41,134 nucleotides of DNA from a virus. Shown piece after piece: positions 5,923-24,677 of this stretch. Position 1 is the stretch's first letter. Every line of letters begins with the position of its first letter. A program made the position numbers and the translations under genes. Location of the stretch: the IMG/VR virus record IMGVR_UViG_3300023273_000524, positions 1 to 41,134 of that record; one strand, 5' to 3'. Below the pieces are notes generated by a model. It did not search any database. It saw only the letters and a program-made list of their open reading frames with translations, and was not told the DNA's origin.

Positions 5923-8152
5923 ATTCTATTTCACAATCGAGTTTAATCTCTTTCTCTCGATAATCAATAGTAACACTGCCACCAGCTTTTAGATCGCCAA
6001 ACAACATTTGACGACTAAGTGGACGTTTGATTTCGTTGTCAATAACACGTTGTAACGGACGAGCACCCATCTTAGGATCAAATCCTTTGTCTACAAGATA
6101 ATCAAGAGCATCATCTGTGATGTTAATAGCAATATCTTTTTTCTGTACTTGTGTTTTAAGTTCAACAAGAAACTTGCCAACAATCTTCAGCATGACTTCT
6201 TTGCTGAGTTTGCCAAACGTAATAACACCATCTAGTCTATTTCTAAACTCTGGAGTAAAGAACTTTTTAAGATCGACATCGTCATAATCTTTTTCCATAC
6301 TATCACTAAATCCAATAGTATTCTTTTCTGCCTCTTGCGCACCCAAGTTGGTAGTAAGAATCAGTGTACAGTTACGTGCATCTGCTTCTTTACCATTAGA
6401 TCCTGTAATCTTGCCATTGTCCATAATCTGTAGTAGTACGCTACTTACATCTGGATGTGCTTTTTCAATCTCGTCCAATAGCAACACACAGTTAGGATTC
6501 TCTTGAATCTTATCAATCAATAAACCGCCGGCATTGTCTTCGTATCCAACATATCCTGGAGGTGATCCGATTAGTTTACTAATACTATGTTTTTCTTGAT
6601 ATTCACTCATATCAAAACGTACAAGTTTTACACCGAGTTGGTTGCTAAGTTGTTTGGCAAGTTCAGTTTTACCTACACCTGTTGGACCCATAAACACAAA
6701 AGATCCTACTGGTTTGTTGTCACTTTTAAGTCCTGCTTGACTTACAAGTATTTTGTCAACAATATCGTCGATTGCTTTGTCTTGTCCGTACACTACCTTT
6801 TTCAAGTTATCTTCCAAGTGTGCAAGATTTTCACTTTCACGCTCTTTTATTTGTTCTTCAGGAAGTTTAATCATTTTTGCAAGTTCAAACTGAACACTAT
6901 CTTTGGTTACAACTTTGTCTTCAGTAATATCACGTACTTTAAATCTTGCACATGCTACGTCAATCAAATCAATAGCTTTGTCAGGAAGTTTTTTATCGTT
7001 TTGATATTTCATACTTAAATCAACTGCTGCTTCAAGTGCCTCCTGTTGAATATTAACACTATGAAACTCTTCGTAGTATGTTTTAATACCTTCAAGGATT
7101 TTTAGTGTAGTTTCTCTATCCGGTTCGTCAACACTTACTCTCTGGAATCGGCGCATAAGAGCCCGATCCTTTTCAAAGAACTTGCGATATTCTTCCCAAG
7201 TAGTTGAAGCAACAACATTGATGTTTCCTTTTGCAAGTGCAGGTTTTAACATATTAGCCAAATCATTCGATCCACCACTGCCGCCTGCGCCCGCACCACT
7301 AATCATGTGTGCTTCGTCAATAAACATAATAGTTTTGCCTTTGCCTTTTAACCCTGCAAGCACCATTTTAAAACGTTCTTCAAAGTCGCCGCGATATTTT
7401 GATCCAGCAAGCATAGCGCCAATGTCTAAACTAAACACTCGGTATTCTTTTAGAAACTCTGGTACATTTCCGTTAACAATCTGATAAGCAAGACCTTCTG
7501 CAATAGCAGTTTTACCAACACCTGGATCACCAACAATAAGAACATTTGATTTTGTACGGCGTCCTAATGCAAGAGCAACTTGTTCAATTTCTTCATCTCT
7601 ACCAATCACTGGATCAATCTTATTCATACTAACTTGTTGATTTAGATCTGTAGTAAAATCTCGTAGTGCTTTGTTAGCAATGCCTTTGTTTTCGTTTTCG
7701 TCTTGGTTATCATATATTTCTGTTTCTGCACTAATATAGTTCTGAAACTTTTCTTTGTCAATGCCAACTTTTTTTGTAATAAAGTATGCCCAACTTTTCT
7801 TTTCAGTTAAGATACTAATAAACACATCGGCAATAGTAATATCGTTTCTGCCTTGGAAAAGTACTTGTGTAAATGCACGATTTAAAACACGTTCTACTGT
7901 GGTAGTTTTCTTTGGTTTATATTTCTTTTCTTCAATCTTAATATCATTTAGATGTGTTTTTAAATAGTTTTCTAGTTCTTTACGCATATGTTCAGCGTCT
8001 GCACCATAACCTGATATCAAGGTTCCGAATGTTTCTTCGCAGAGCATAGCAAATAGTAAATGTTCTAATGTAATATATTCGTGCTGAAGTTTCTTAGCAT
8101 CGTTAACTGCTTTATCAAACACTGCCTGTAACTCTTTTGATGGTTCAACCAT
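5909..8152 (-). CDS. clpA: ClpA-type AAA+ unfoldase
   Basis: At 747 aa this is close to E. coli ClpA (758 aa). The N-terminal Clp double-helix domain (about 1-140) is followed by AAA+ module D1 with Walker A GDPGVGKT (208-215) and Walker B MFIDEAH (276-282). Module D2 has Walker A GPTGVGKT (489-496), Walker B LLLDEIEKAH (557-566) and the pore motif GYVGYED. The tripeptide IGF at 613-615 sits where ClpA carries its ClpP-docking loop, so this phage unfoldase could plug into a host ClpP. There is no ClpB/Hsp104-type middle domain. The start overlaps the peptide deformylase stop by 8 bases, in an operon with dnaJ. Family function is ATP-driven unfolding of substrates for proteolysis; which proteins it targets here is unknown. 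Confidence 0.95.
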   Translation of the reverse strand: MVEPSKELQAVFDKAVNDAKKLQHEYITLEHLLFAMLCEETFGTLISGYGADAEHMRKELENYLKTHLNDIKIEEKKYKPKKTTTVERVLNRAFTQVLFQGRNDITIADVFISILTEKKSWAYFITKKVGIDKEKFQNYISAETEIYDNQDENENKGIANKALRDFTTDLNQQVSMNKIDPVIGRDEEIEQVALALGRRTKSNVLIVGDPGVGKTAIAEGLAYQIVNGNVPEFLKEYRVFSLDIGAMLAGSKYRGDFEERFKMVLAGLKGKGKTIMFIDEAHMISGAGAGGSGGSNDLANMLKPALAKGNINVVASTTWEEYRKFFEKDRALMRRFQRVSVDEPDRETTLKILEGIKTYYEEFHSVNIQQEALEAAVDLSMKYQNDKKLPDKAIDLIDVACARFKVRDITEDKVVTKDSVQFELAKMIKLPEEQIKERESENLAHLEDNLKKVVYGQDKAIDDIVDKILVSQAGLKSDNKPVGSFVFMGPTGVGKTELAKQLSNQLGVKLVRFDMSEYQEKHSISKLIGSPPGYVGYEDNAGGLLIDKIQENPNCVLLLDEIEKAHPDVSSVLLQIMDNGKITGSNGKEADARNCTLILTTNLGAQEAEKNTIGFSDSMEKDYDDVDLKKFFTPEFRNRLDGVITFGKLSKEVMLKIVGKFLVELKTQVQKKDIAINITDDALDYLVDKGFDPKMGARPLQRVIDNEIKRPLSRQMLFGDLKAGGSVTIDYREKEIKLDCEIEYETV

Positions 8153-15397: not shown

Positions 15398-15864
15398 TTA
15401 TCAATATATAAATCGCCTTCGTGTTGACTACTTACAAGACTAAACGTAGTTTCAATGAGTTCTCGCGGTAGAAATGTGTCGCAATCATACGTGCCATCAA
15501 TACGACTCAGCCAAACTTCGTCAATGATGTCGAGGCTATCAGCAACTAGTTTAGCGCCACCAATGATCCAAACATCATCAGTCATATTCATAGTAACACA
15601 ACGAGACTTGTAAATATCAGGACGCACTACTTCAATGCGCTCGTGACTGTTTTCTCTCATTGTTCTTGATACAATAACATTGTGTCGTCTAGGCATTGGC
15701 TTGGGCATGTCAGGATCATCCCAAGTTGCTCTACCCATAACAACTGTACTATTGATTGTACATTCTTTGAACCATTGCAGGTCGGCAGGGTTATGTGGCC
15801 ACGGAAGTGTTCCGCTTTTGCCAATGCCCCATGCATCGTCACATGCTAGTATTGCTCTAATCAC
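15382..15864 (-). CDS. frd: Dihydrofolate reductase
   Basis: A 160-aa DHFR. Key segments: [13 protein letters not shown] (the Met20-loop region, about 11-23), TVVMGRATW (NADPH-binding), RRHNVIVSR, and [11 protein letters not shown]. The acidic active-site residue is in the NPADLQWFK segment. It reduces dihydrofolate to tetrahydrofolate with NADPH and partners the thymidylate synthase encoded directly downstream. It overlaps the ferredoxin gene by 8 bases at its start, so ferredoxin, DHFR and thymidylate synthase are likely co-translated. Confidence 0.92.
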
Positions 15865-16198
15865 CTTGTCCTGGCTCCTCTGAAAAGTATTGCATTTTGC
15901 CTTCTACCCCATGCCATTCTTTGGCATCCTCAGGTACATCTTCTGGCCGCATTTCTGTAATCACAGGCCACAAGTCTGCATACTTTTGATTAAAGTCAAC
16001 CCACTCTGCTGCACCAGGTGCTGTATCAGGAAGAATTGCATCTGCAGGACATTCCGGCTCGCAGACGCCACAGTCAATGCATTCTATTGGATTAATAACC
16101 AGCATGTTTTCGCCTTCGTAGAAACAATCTACTGGACAAACTTCTACACAATCCATGTGTTTACATTTAATACATGCATCATTTACAATATATGTCAT
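15857..16198 (-). CDS. fdxA: 7Fe ferredoxin (FdxA type)
   Basis: A 113-aa ferredoxin with all ligands of the bacterial FdxA/ferredoxin II family: Cys9, Cys17 and Cys50 for a 3Fe-4S cluster, and Cys21, Cys40, Cys43 and Cys46 for a 4Fe-4S cluster. The start [20 protein letters not shown] and the C-terminal ending with [10 protein letters not shown] and EEPGQGD are close to alphaproteobacterial FdxA as I remember it, so capture from such a host is likely. It differs from the plant-type 2Fe-2S ferredoxin carried by cyanophages. It is embedded between the clamp loader (overlap 4 bases) and DHFR (overlap 8 bases). It could donate electrons to the radical SAM enzymes or to ribonucleotide metabolism; the partner is unknown. 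Confidence 0.95.
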
Positions 16199-19485: not shown

Positions 19486-19514
19486 ATACTACGGCATAAT
19501 TTTCTTTTTGTCAA
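19486..19514 (-). promoter_or_regulatory. Sigma70-type promoter TTGACA-N17-TAGTAT before dexA
   Basis: On the minus strand a perfect -35 TTGACA (19509-19514) and a -10 TAGTAT (19486-19491) are separated by exactly 17 bases. The start would be near 19479, giving a short leader with the GAGG site of dexA. A GTATA-TTT-TATAC inverted repeat overlaps the region just after the -10 box. The promoter sits inside the 3' end of the radical SAM gene. The same element, with the same -35, -10 and spacing, is found at 22237-22265. Confidence 0.75.
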
Positions 19515-20397
19515 GTGAAATCTTTTCTACACTACCAGAGTTAATAGGACATAATACACATTGTGGTACACTATTTGAAAGTGCAGATACCTGTTCTTCT
19601 AGTGTATTTGAAAATGCATCAATGGGTTTATAGCTTTCATATAGATCTTTATCCTGTTTTCTTACAGGATATTTCTTAACAAACGCTTGTGCTCCTACAA
19701 CAGTACCGCATTTGTACATTTTACCTTTATATATATACGGACAGTCATTGTGCCAACATGCAGTGTGTGCCTGTTCTCTATCGCTTTCATAAAAGTTATA
19801 AACACCGTTGTCGATACTTTTTACACCCCATGGCATAAACTTGTCTTTATAGTTTATTATAAATGCTGGATGATCCCCTACAAGAATAGCTTCTTCATAA
19901 TAGCACCCAGCATGGCGTGCTTGATCTTTGATAAAGTTGTTTTTTGTTACTGTATATTTTTCGTATTTGCCGTCTAGTACTTCGTCAATAATTGCAAATG
20001 CTTTTGGAACATGATCCTGAGAATGAAAACTAAGTTCTACAGTAACTCCTCTGTCAAACCAGGCTTTCATTTTATCTGCATGTTTAGATAATAAAGTCCC
20101 GTTTGTTACCACTCTAAAATCTCTACAAGTGAATACATCACGTAATCCGTGAACCCAGTTGTCTAAATCATTGTTTGTAAAAGGTTCGCCACCAATAATA
20201 CCAAAATCATTTACATGAAGTTTTTCACTCCATCTCTGTGCTTCTCTTGCAAAGTCACTAAACTTTTCTTGTCCACTAATAGCAAAGTTATTAAAGTTAC
20301 TACAGTTTGTACAAGTTAAGTTACAACTATGACCGATATACCATTGTAATGCATGAACTAGTATTTTTTCGTTTTTAAGTATTCTACCGTTTAGCAT
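19489..20397 (-). CDS. Radical SAM protein with SPASM-like C-terminal cysteines
   Basis: A 302-aa protein with the radical SAM motif CNLTCTNC (Cys25, Cys29, Cys32, CX3CX2C) that binds the 4Fe-4S cluster cleaving S-adenosylmethionine, and the GGEP motif (69-72) for SAM binding. The C-terminus has five cysteines (214, 219, 230, 280, 283) in a layout like SPASM/twitch auxiliary Fe-S cluster domains, which are common in peptide- and protein-modifying members such as anaerobic sulfatase maturases. The substrate is unknown. The start overlaps the nitroreductase stop by 7 bases, so the two are likely translated together. Confidence 0.88.
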   Translation of the reverse strand: MLNGRILKNEKILVHALQWYIGHSCNLTCTNCSNFNNFAISGQEKFSDFAREAQRWSEKLHVNDFGIIGGEPFTNNDLDNWVHGLRDVFTCRDFRVVTNGTLLSKHADKMKAWFDRGVTVELSFHSQDHVPKAFAIIDEVLDGKYEKYTVTKNNFIKDQARHAGCYYEEAILVGDHPAFIINYKDKFMPWGVKSIDNGVYNFYESDREQAHTACWHNDCPYIYKGKMYKCGTVVGAQAFVKKYPVRKQDKDLYESYKPIDAFSNTLEEQVSALSNSVPQCVLCPINSGSVEKISLDKKKIMP

Positions 20398-21014
20398 TTA
20401 TCCACTTGTATTTTTTGTTTCTTCTTGGTAGGAAAAACAAAATCCTCTGCGTGATGTTCACGTCGTGGACGAGTTTCGTCTTTGAATCCTATACCCATCA
20501 ACAAATGTACATGTGTATCAATATCTAATATTTCTGCAACTTGTGCAGGATCAAAACATGCGCAACAACCTGTGCTATAACCTAGCATACTTGCTGTAAT
20601 ATTTGCATATCCTGCTGCAATACCCACTGCCATGTGTTTGTCTTTGAGCAAGTCTTCGGGCTTTTCTAAATCCTTGCTTGGAACAAATACATCTCCAAAA
20701 ATATTTTCTTTTGGTTCTTCGTTTGATTCTGCAAATACGACCAACAAATTTGCTAATACCTGACTGTTTGTAACAGTTTCATTTGTTTGAAAGTTAGAGA
20801 TAAAACCGTTGGTTGTTTGATATATACGTTCAATCTTATCTCTATCTGTAACAAATATAACTTTGTAATATGCTACATTTTGTTTACTAGGACAATCGGC
20901 AACGGCTGTTCTAATAACCTCGATATCCTCATCTGGAATAGTTTTACTTAAATCCCAGTTACGTTGACAATGTTGACTTCTAATGATTGCTTTTTTGATA
21001 TCAGATTTATTCAC
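20391..21014 (-). CDS. Nitroreductase-like flavoprotein
   Basis: A 207-aa protein matching the nitroreductase fold: an N-terminal RNWDLSKTIPDEDIEVIRTA segment (the S/R-x-R-x-F/W start that binds FMN phosphate), PSKQNVAYYKVIFVTD, and AVGIAAGYANITASMLGYST, the family's conserved helix. The C-terminal KDETRPRREHHAEDFV is a typical tail. The family uses FMN and NAD(P)H to reduce nitro groups, quinones, flavins or enones, or in modified versions to dehydrogenate peptides. The start is GTG 21014, with AAGGAG seven bases upstream. It lies directly before, and overlaps, a radical SAM gene, so joint action on one substrate is a fair hypothesis. Confidence 0.85.
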   Translation of the reverse strand: MNKSDIKKAIIRSQHCQRNWDLSKTIPDEDIEVIRTAVADCPSKQNVAYYKVIFVTDRDKIERIYQTTNGFISNFQTNETVTNSQVLANLLVVFAESNEEPKENIFGDVFVPSKDLEKPEDLLKDKHMAVGIAAGYANITASMLGYSTGCCACFDPAQVAEILDIDTHVHLLMGIGFKDETRPRREHHAEDFVFPTKKKQKIQVDKC

Positions 21015-21031
21015 AGCAGTTCTCCTTTGTA

Positions 21032-22265: not shown

Positions 22266-24123
22266 GTGGTTTTTTATTTTTTGATGCATTGCATTTCCAG
22301 TATCCTATTTTTCTTTGATAATGATATGCTGTTCTGTGCCAATCATTTGTTGGTGTTGTCTTATCAAAATGATCAATATGTATACGATCTGCATCAATAC
22401 CTACCATATCACGTGCAACTTCTTTTAAAACAGTTACAGTAATAGGATATTCTATATCTTTTTCTCTGCACATTCTAAGATTGAGAGCAACGATATCACG
22501 TACTTTCCATTCCGATATTAGTTTTGTACTTAATAAAAAGTTATATAAATCTGTTTCTAGTCTATATACTGCTTTACTTATCCTTGCACTACTTGCGCCT
22601 TTGTATTCCCAAAGCATATCGTCTTCACCAAATGCTTGTCTACCCCACAATGCACGTTTTGCATATACATCTTCAAAACTTTTTTTAGTTTCTATGTATT
22701 CGTCATGTAATAATCCCGGATTGTGTTTGATCCATTCAAATAGTTTATAATACAGGTCAGTTTCTAAAATATTTTGCTTACGCATGTACTTAGCAAGATA
22801 ATGTCCCCAACCATAGTAATACATTAATATTACTAACCAACTATACATGTGCCCTTCGATAACTGTATCGTGGTCTGCTGTGTCTGTAGCGTATATTACA
22901 TCAGTGTATTCCGTAATATATTTTTCATCTGCATCTAAATACACAGTGTCTAATGCTATCTTACGCACATCTAAACCATGCTGCTCTTGATATGTTTTGT
23001 TACCCATTGGAGAGTTGTCAGTAACAACTAATGGGTGTATCATGAGATAGTTGTCTTGTCCTGCATCTATAAGTTGCTGTATACCAGACTTTAAACTATC
23101 GAATGTTTCTCCAGGCAATGGCCATATAAGTTCGCTATAAGTTTTAATACCATCTTTTTTATACTGATCAAAATATTTTTTAAGTTCGTCAAAGTCCAAA
23201 TTAAATCTATCTACATGTTCTAATGTATCATCGTTAAAACTTTGTAATGCTACTGTAATACCTTTGAAAATATCAACGCCACTATCGTGTGCATATTTTG
23301 CTATCGCATAGTTTTTATCGTGATTATTTTTACTCCAAGTTGCATCCCACCATTTGGGGTATCCGTATTTTTTCTTTGTTTCTAATACGTGTTGTGTTAG
23401 TTCATAATCTCTATCCAACATGCCCCAGTTGCTATCGCACACGCTAACATATTCAATACGGTTTTTACCCATCCATTCTATTTCTGCTTTACAACGTTCC
23501 ATATCAAACAATGTAAGTTTATTCCAGTAACTTTCACCTATATCACAAAAGCTGCAATGGTATGGGCAGCCCCGCAAACTTTCCCAAGTAACTTGAAACA
23601 TGGTGTCCTCAGGATACTTTGCCATAATAGGTTCATAAAAGCCTTCTAGTATAGGCGAAGGTATATCATTTATGTTTTTCCTACGCACTGCTGGCTCTGG
23701 CATATGATACAGTGTTTGTACGTTTGGTATAGTTTCCCAATCGTCGCCTGCAAGTATGCTTTTAAATGCTTCTTCACCTTCGCCATGTACAAACGCATCA
23801 AACATAGGATGCTTGTCAAAAAAGTCAGGATCGTATTTGTTTATTTGTGGGCCGCCTGTTATAACTTTGCACTGTCTAAACTTGCGTTTGATTTGTTTTG
23901 CGAGTTCTCTATTGTATTCCCAGTTCCATACATAACTACTCATAGCAACTAGATCAGGAGATTCCATAGTTGCTGCATAATCTACAGGTTCTGTTTTTTC
24001 TATTAGTACATCTTTGAGTGTCCAGTTGTCGTTTTTACCATAGCACCATTGATAACCTATTGCAAGTGGTAAAAATTTATTTGGTCCATGATTATCACTT
24101 GCTTGAATCAAGTATATATTCAT
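22246..24123 (-). CDS. B12-binding-type radical SAM protein (625 aa)
   Basis: The N-terminal ~150 residues read as a cobalamin-binding-like Rossmann domain (DLVAMSSYVWNWEYNRELAK, KVITGGPQINKYDPDFF, FVHGEGEEAF), the usual partner of class B radical SAM enzymes; it lacks the DxHxxG motif, as many of these do. The radical SAM core follows, with RGCPYHCSFC (Cys186, Cys190, Cys193, CX3CX2C) and a downstream barrel (CDSNWGMLDRDYEL, TVALQSFNDDTLEHV, LIWPLPGETFDSL). The last ~220 residues are a Tyr/Trp-rich helical domain that I cannot assign. Related enzymes often methylate unactivated carbons or rearrange skeletons; the substrate here is unknown. The start overlaps the DnaE-like gene as ATGA. Confidence 0.88.
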   Translation of the reverse strand: MNIYLIQASDNHGPNKFLPLAIGYQWCYGKNDNWTLKDVLIEKTEPVDYAATMESPDLVAMSSYVWNWEYNRELAKQIKRKFRQCKVITGGPQINKYDPDFFDKHPMFDAFVHGEGEEAFKSILAGDDWETIPNVQTLYHMPEPAVRRKNINDIPSPILEGFYEPIMAKYPEDTMFQVTWESLRGCPYHCSFCDIGESYWNKLTLFDMERCKAEIEWMGKNRIEYVSVCDSNWGMLDRDYELTQHVLETKKKYGYPKWWDATWSKNNHDKNYAIAKYAHDSGVDIFKGITVALQSFNDDTLEHVDRFNLDFDELKKYFDQYKKDGIKTYSELIWPLPGETFDSLKSGIQQLIDAGQDNYLMIHPLVVTDNSPMGNKTYQEQHGLDVRKIALDTVYLDADEKYITEYTDVIYATDTADHDTVIEGHMYSWLVILMYYYGWGHYLAKYMRKQNILETDLYYKLFEWIKHNPGLLHDEYIETKKSFEDVYAKRALWGRQAFGEDDMLWEYKGASSARISKAVYRLETDLYNFLLSTKLISEWKVRDIVALNLRMCREKDIEYPITVTVLKEVARDMVGIDADRIHIDHFDKTTPTNDWHRTAYHYQRKIGYWKCNASKNKKPLDICHK

Positions 24124-24677
24124 CGCAGGAATTCACGCCAATCTAAATTGTATTTAATACTGTCAATACGATGCACTCCAATCAAATACAGCACATAACT
24201 TGCTACACTTGATCCACGTCCTACACCCCATACAATGTTATTCTCACGCATAAAGTCTACAAGATACACCATATAGCGTAGCAGATCAAACATACCACGC
24301 TCTCTAAACGCTTCGAGTTCTTCGCAAACTCTAGTCCATTCTACTGTTTCTTGCATGTCATACGCATCAAAGATTTGCATATTGAGCATTAGGCGTGACA
24401 TTATATCTGCACCTATATCAAGTTCTTTATATTTGTCAGGCATAAACCATTCGCTTTGACATACACCGTCAAAAGTCTTTTGATCTACATCTAATGGGAT
24501 ATACTTTTGTAGTTTATCAAAGCCTTGCTCTTCCATAGCGGCATTGAATTTGTCTATTTCATCAGATTCGCTACACAGCACAACGTGTACTTTGTCAGCA
24601 TTACCTGAATAGATCATGTTAATTAAGTCTTTGTTTGTAAACCGTGGGATACCGAGAGTGTCTGTTTTCATTAGCAT
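24120..24677 (-). CDS. DnaE-like (DNA polymerase III alpha) fragment protein (185 aa)
   Basis: The last ~60 residues match the start of the DnaE palm: YMVYLVDFMRENNIVWGVGR then GSSVASYVLYLIG, ending IKYNLDWREFLR. In bacterial DnaE this GxGRGSxxxS segment (here 151-160) is followed at once by the PD(I/F)DxD catalytic aspartates, but here the protein stops just before them, so it cannot be a polymerase alone. The N-terminal ~120 residues are helical and unassigned (VHVVLCSESDEIDKFNAAME). Similar short proteins, annotated as PolIII-alpha-like, occur in marine T4-like phages, from memory. No ribosome site is obvious before ATG 24677; a second ATG is two codons in. Confidence 0.75.
   Translation of the reverse strand: MLMKTDTLGIPRFTNKDLINMIYSGNADKVHVVLCSESDEIDKFNAAMEEQGFDKLQKYIPLDVDQKTFDGVCQSEWFMPDKYKELDIGADIMSRLMLNMQIFDAYDMQETVEWTRVCEELEAFRERGMFDLLRYMVYLVDFMRENNIVWGVGRGSSVASYVLYLIGVHRIDSIKYNLDWREFLR

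Follow-up and report, generated by a model that had tools for sequence, protein, structure and literature searches.

The stretch of DNA analysed here (the window; 41,134 nt, IMG/VR record IMGVR_UViG_3300023273_000524) is a viral record which also encodes spanins, an endolysin, a peptide deformylase, an ATP-dependent protease and virion proteins; its source is a tailed phage, and its relatives come from marine samples and include marine phages. On the minus strand two genes overlap, a nitroreductase-fold gene (NR) and a radical SAM gene (RS), both of which are open reading frames over the coordinates reported in an initial annotation (Table 1). The 3' end of NR reads GTG GAT AAA TGC TAA and RS begins within it, which confirmed the 7-base overlap that the initial annotation had described. 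Given that a strong Shine-Dalgarno sequence precedes NR and that no good one of its own was found upstream of the RS start, translation of RS is likely to be coupled to that of NR, and the two genes are probably co-transcribed. Among relatives the junction varies: the genes overlap by 7 or by 4 bases, or stand 10 bases apart. The T4-type late promoter TATAAATA was not enriched (2 found vs 4.7 expected). Purifying selection acts on both genes (dN/dS 0.04-0.23 for RS and 0-0.12 for NR), and RS diverges faster than NR in more distant pairs (dN 0.29 vs 0.05 in contig L112). The pair is flanked by gaps of 21 bases on the side of a MazG-like gene and 33 bases on the side of an exonuclease gene. Some relatives (L018:5290-5976, also L021 and L114-L116) have, on the stretch from MazG to NR (or to the exonuclease), a gene for a Bax1-I family membrane protein which the window lacks.

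Table 1. Features of the NR-RS locus and their positions in the window.
Feature	Position	Strand	Basis
RS, predicted twitch-type radical SAM enzyme, 302 aa, ATG start	19489-20397	minus	ORF, profiles, motif, predicted fold
NR, putative nitroreductase-fold FMN oxidoreductase, 207 aa, GTG start	20391-21014	minus	ORF, PF00881 profile, predicted fold
7-base overlap ATGCTAA, NR stop within RS start	20391-20397	minus	sequence
Shine-Dalgarno region of NR (AAAGGAG)	21015-21028	minus	sequence
B12-binding radical SAM protein (KedN5-like), 625 aa	22246-24123	minus	profile, comparison

RS matched the Radical_SAM profile PF04055 slightly below the curated cut-off (E 7.6e-6, 26.6 bits against 29.5), and Fer4_12 was matched as well; its membership of the superfamily is shown by an invariant SAM-cluster motif CX3CX2C (C25-x3-C29-x2-C32) together with the fold matches described below. 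The five additional C-terminal cysteines mentioned in the initial annotation were all found (C214, C219, C230, C280 and C283). In an alignment of ten sequences, consisting of the window and IMG/VR relatives with 35-99% identity to the window RS, C25, C29, C32, C214, G225, C230, C280 and C283 were invariant. Four of the five C-terminal cysteines thus do not vary freely among homologues; the exception is C219, which is C or T (T in L008 and L018). A relative in the cyanophage S-SCSM2R, only 22-25% identical, retains every cluster cysteine. The SPASM motif has seven cysteines, CX9-15GX4C-CX2CX5CX3C-C (PMC6231123), and the twitch motif is made up of the first four of these, CX9-15GX4C...CX2C (PMC6231123, PMC9012708). 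RS contains C214-x10-G225-x4-C230...C280-x2-C283 (CX10GX4C...CX2C), and since RS has the first four SPASM cysteines and none after the CX2C at 280-283, the SPASM-like assignment of the initial annotation was replaced by a twitch-type one, for which one auxiliary Fe-S cluster is predicted rather than the two of SPASM proteins. RS would accordingly bind two Fe-S clusters, the SAM-cluster and the auxiliary one, as judged from its cysteines. Viperin lacks the C-terminal cysteines, and it was rejected as an identity for RS given that the similarity was weak, N-terminal and common to many radical SAM families. No relatives of RS were found in the plasmid collection searched.

The structure of RS was predicted with AlphaFold2 at moderate confidence (pLDDT 80.5, pTM 0.84), which was lowest around the SAM-cluster loop. 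The top full-length match in the PDB was SpeY (E 1.3e-10, TM 0.60, about 300 residues), so that similarity to the SpeY/BtrN type of dehydrogenase fold extends over the full length of RS; MoaA, EpeE and BtrN stood below SpeY in the list, and SkfB and SuiB were also among the matches. In a viral structure library the best matches were phage radical SAM proteins (TM 0.74 and 0.69). Dehydrogenase chemistry is known for the twitch enzyme BtrN (PMC9012708). At the sequence level the best matches of the RS core were MoaA models, and the lineage has a QueD-type (PTPS) protein (noted at L187:12105-12557 and at L190 of G003), both of which would fit a MoaA-like enzyme that acts on a nucleotide, with NR reducing the resulting base or cofactor. 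This reading seems highly improbable to us, given that the MoaA matches cover only about 110 N-terminal residues, that the full-length TM is 0.37 compared with 0.6 for SpeY, and that the auxiliary cluster of MoaA is held by three cysteines with an open site (PMC9012708) whereas RS has four conserved ones.

NR matched the Nitroreductase profile PF00881 well above the cut-off (E 3.2e-11, 44.1 bits against 23.5), and its model has a fold of the NfsB/RdxA/YdfN type (Foldseek E about 1e-9), which suggests that NR is an FMN oxidoreductase. Six short patterns retrieved at least 136 related stretches from viral contigs. In 84,980 prokaryote genomes the only match was a single 3.2-kb MAG contig that is possibly viral, and a bacterial source for NR was therefore discarded; the scan relied on a pair of peptide patterns and would not detect distant relatives in cells. 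No relatives were found on plasmids. The family thus appears to be almost exclusively viral, and we know of no characterised member of it. All of C16, C41, C150, C151 and C153 are present in 59 out of 64 distinct NR sequences, the five exceptions being divergent paralogues and the protein of the Pelagibacter phage Mosig, which is the sole NR relative found among cultured phages. When NR was aligned with YdfN, the five cysteines fell at or beside the FMN-contacting segments, as placed by reference to NfsB, and on this basis the flavin site of NR is probably lined with cysteines.

To what extent the two genes travel together was examined in the lineage of the window, for which twelve distinct contigs were compared, all of them fragments. 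NR, RS and a B12-binding radical SAM protein were all present in 7/12, and the order of the pair was kept in seven distinct related phage genomes, as the initial annotation had proposed to check. Four contigs (L114, L116, L117 and L118) carry the B12 protein, and neither NR nor RS was found along these fragments. The remaining contig (L021) carries NR with neither RS nor the B12 enzyme, and no radical SAM gene occurs on its 43.7 kb. RS without NR directly upstream was not seen. Well-supported branches in a tree built from five conserved neighbours force at least two switches of the NR+RS state. In this lineage NR and RS are usually inherited as a block, and given that related phages mostly keep or drop both genes, the pair probably functions as a unit.

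The B12 enzyme is present wherever RS is present. Since relatives without NR and RS also have it, it is a possible but not a necessary partner of RS. That NR and the B12 enzyme might be connected through BluB and cobalamin was considered and rejected, as the BluB model matched at E 0.028 only and the two genes occur independently. In several relatives a second RS-type gene, absent from the window, precedes the B12 enzyme and overlaps its start (L007:1424-2287, L008:225-1085 and L110:7169-8029), and a third RS-type gene (L196, G001:61021-61236) starts at the end of a contig, so that one phage may hold three RS paralogues. Two further genes on the minus strand of the window were noted. One (15857-16198) encodes a phage ferredoxin (phrog_8732) that is 79-92% identical across the lineage contigs reaching it, including contigs without RS, and it is a possible electron donor for radical SAM enzymes. 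The other (24120-24677) is a 185-aa ORF whose only match is to part of DNA polymerase III alpha (phrog_11127, PF07733); it stops abruptly inside the domain and is kept in the whole lineage.

Outside the lineage, NR occurs in both orientations next to radical SAM genes of other families (clusters 1, 2 and 86). About eight changes in this adjacency are seen on the NR tree, and starred branches require at least four of them. With radical SAM genes detected by motif plus HMMs, NR was adjacent to one in 11 contigs compared with 2.3 expected under a random-gene null (18 contigs). When only genes within five genes of a radical SAM gene were considered, 11/13 island contigs had NR adjacent compared with 5.2 expected (P 0.0012), a value that is indicative given that some contigs are related (the window and G001; G008 and G012) and that they were chosen by NR score. 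One reading of these data is that the cysteine-rich viral NR family supplies phage radical SAM enzymes with a dedicated redox partner, repeatedly recruited beside different families to form a two-enzyme module that makes modified sugars. We regard this as unlikely; if it were true, the CCxC flavin pocket of NR would constitute an active site of a new kind, either flavin-thiol or flavin-metal.

In many phages NR lies away from any radical SAM gene, for example near SpeD or Hsp20, or beside NrdB with NrdA close by. In L065, L075 and L087 (NR at 5989/5995) NrdB adjoins NR and one gene separates NR from NrdA, and this position between the large and small ribonucleotide reductase genes hints at a general redox role. 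Given that many phages carry NR without an adjacent radical SAM gene, NR has an independent function, and its substrate may differ from that of RS. The two could then be unrelated auxiliary genes that travel together: NR would be a general flavin oxidoreductase that serves redox balance or nucleotide metabolism, and RS would work alone or with the B12 enzyme. The contig with NR but no RS or B12 enzyme would be expected on this account, as would the retention of the same NR cysteines with or without an adjacent radical SAM gene, the constant company of RS and the B12 enzyme, and the RS paralogue overlapping the start of the B12 gene in several relatives. Nevertheless, L114-L118 keep the B12 enzyme without RS and NR, RS was never seen without NR, and NR adjoins radical SAM genes more often than other island genes do. 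We consider independence of the two genes a real possibility, though a doubtful one.

The initial annotation had proposed a two-enzyme unit for modification or detoxification, possibly of a peptide. The first part of this proposal is supported by the gene order in seven phages, by the joint gain or loss of the two genes and by the adjacency of NR to radical SAM genes, whereas the peptide part is not; for detoxification, the evidence points in neither direction. Peptides are the substrates of some twitch and SPASM enzymes, the twitch enzyme SkfB being one, and nitroreductase-fold dehydrogenases work in some RiPP pathways. RS could by analogy modify a phage or host peptide, with NR oxidising or reducing the product, and the presence of SkfB, SuiB and EpeE among the fold matches as well as weak partial NCBIfam matches to RiPP maturases are compatible with this. 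However, no conserved precursor gene was found near the pair, in agreement with the initial annotation, and the gaps on either side measure 21 and 33 bases; beyond the exonuclease gene, on its downstream side, lie small ORFs that the other NR+RS contigs do not share. Only 24 residues precede the CX3CX2C motif at residue 25, leaving no room for a peptide-recognition domain, although not every RiPP enzyme needs an RRE domain. SpeY and MoaA also rank above the peptide enzymes, and the cyanophage relative of RS has a sugar-gene setting. Peptide modification is thus the less likely reading and, in our judgement, an improbable one.

The surroundings of that S-SCSM2R relative contain glycosyltransferases, 2OG oxygenases, an annotated inosamine amidinotransferase and an annotated 3-amino-5-hydroxybenzoic acid synthase, which is aminotransferase-like. 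In the window's lineage, the longer contig G003 has genes for a phosphomannomutase-like protein, a cytidylyltransferase and a UDP-Glc/GDP-Man dehydrogenase. None of the genes directly next to the pair is a sugar gene, and the distance to those of G003 exceeds 20 kb. In a published set, two related pelagimyophage genomes are distinguished by radical SAM cassettes within their host-recognition region, and such regions typically carry glycosyltransferases (PMC7029224). A sugar-like substrate is favoured over a peptide on account of the SpeY-like fold, the S-SCSM2R cluster, the sugar genes of G003 and the pelagimyophage cassettes; the SpeY identity of only 14% and the moderate confidence of the RS model are points against it. 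Our preferred reading, which we put forward tentatively, is that NR and RS are inherited together as a redox module of two enzymes whose substrate is a small, sugar-like molecule and whose product feeds glycan or host-surface modification; the faster divergence of RS relative to NR counts against it.

By analogy with its family, RS would cleave SAM and the resulting radical would abstract hydrogen from a small molecule resembling a sugar or cyclitol. The second electron could pass to the four-cysteine auxiliary cluster, so that a sugar or cyclitol alcohol would undergo a two-electron oxidation, as with BtrN and, to judge by its name, SpeY. NR may act on that molecule too, in a paired two-electron step, or serve as an electron outlet, as its co-inheritance with RS would suggest. 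The product would probably enter glycan or host-surface modification during infection.

The literature searches made yielded nothing relevant on the NR-RS pair. The pair is real and conserved. Many phages hold numerous radical SAM genes, and a conserved pair with a solved structural counterpart for RS offers a concrete, testable entry into the radical SAM chemistry of phages; NR adds a flavoenzyme family that is widespread in viruses and whose pocket is probably lined with cysteines. Very dense radical SAM islands were observed, with 24 PF04055 matches on 76 kb (L055/G027), 16 on 53 kb (L039/G017) and 15 on 77 kb (L024/G004), and these islands also hold an Asp/Asn hydroxylase-like gene, an aldehyde dehydrogenase and B12-type genes.

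Compared with known systems, NR shares its fold and the order of its FMN-site segments with the nitroreductases NfsB, RdxA and YdfN, but identity is 14-20% and C16, C41 and TGCCxCF replace the usual FMN-contact residues. The nitroreductase-domain protein of phage Mosig (EXVC030M) is a distant member of the NR family (30% identity over 70%) which in the alignment keeps C16 and C150 whereas C41, C151 and C153 are replaced; its gene cluster includes an aminotransferase, a carbamoyltransferase and MoaA-annotated proteins. SpeY (PDB 7wzv, 7wzx and 7x0b), listed as a 'twitch radical SAM dehydrogenase', resembles RS in its full-length fold, its length of about 300 aa and its twitch domain; identity is 14%, and the phage gene differs in adjoining a nitroreductase. 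BtrN, the radical SAM dehydrogenase of butirosin synthesis, has the same combination of a radical SAM core and a single four-cysteine auxiliary cluster, but the fold match is weaker (TM 0.44), identity is 12% and the gene setting is another one. MoaA, the GTP 3',8-cyclase, shares the core domain, for which it gives the best sequence-level matches, and differs in the C-terminal domain and the auxiliary-cluster ligands, with a poor full-length fold match. The sole well-covered relative of RS among cultured phages is the 'radical SAM superfamily maturase' of Synechococcus phage S-SCSM2R (XQU50219.1), which lies in a glycosyltransferase/aminotransferase cluster without an adjoining nitroreductase but has in common with RS the core, the GGEPF motif and the four twitch cysteines.
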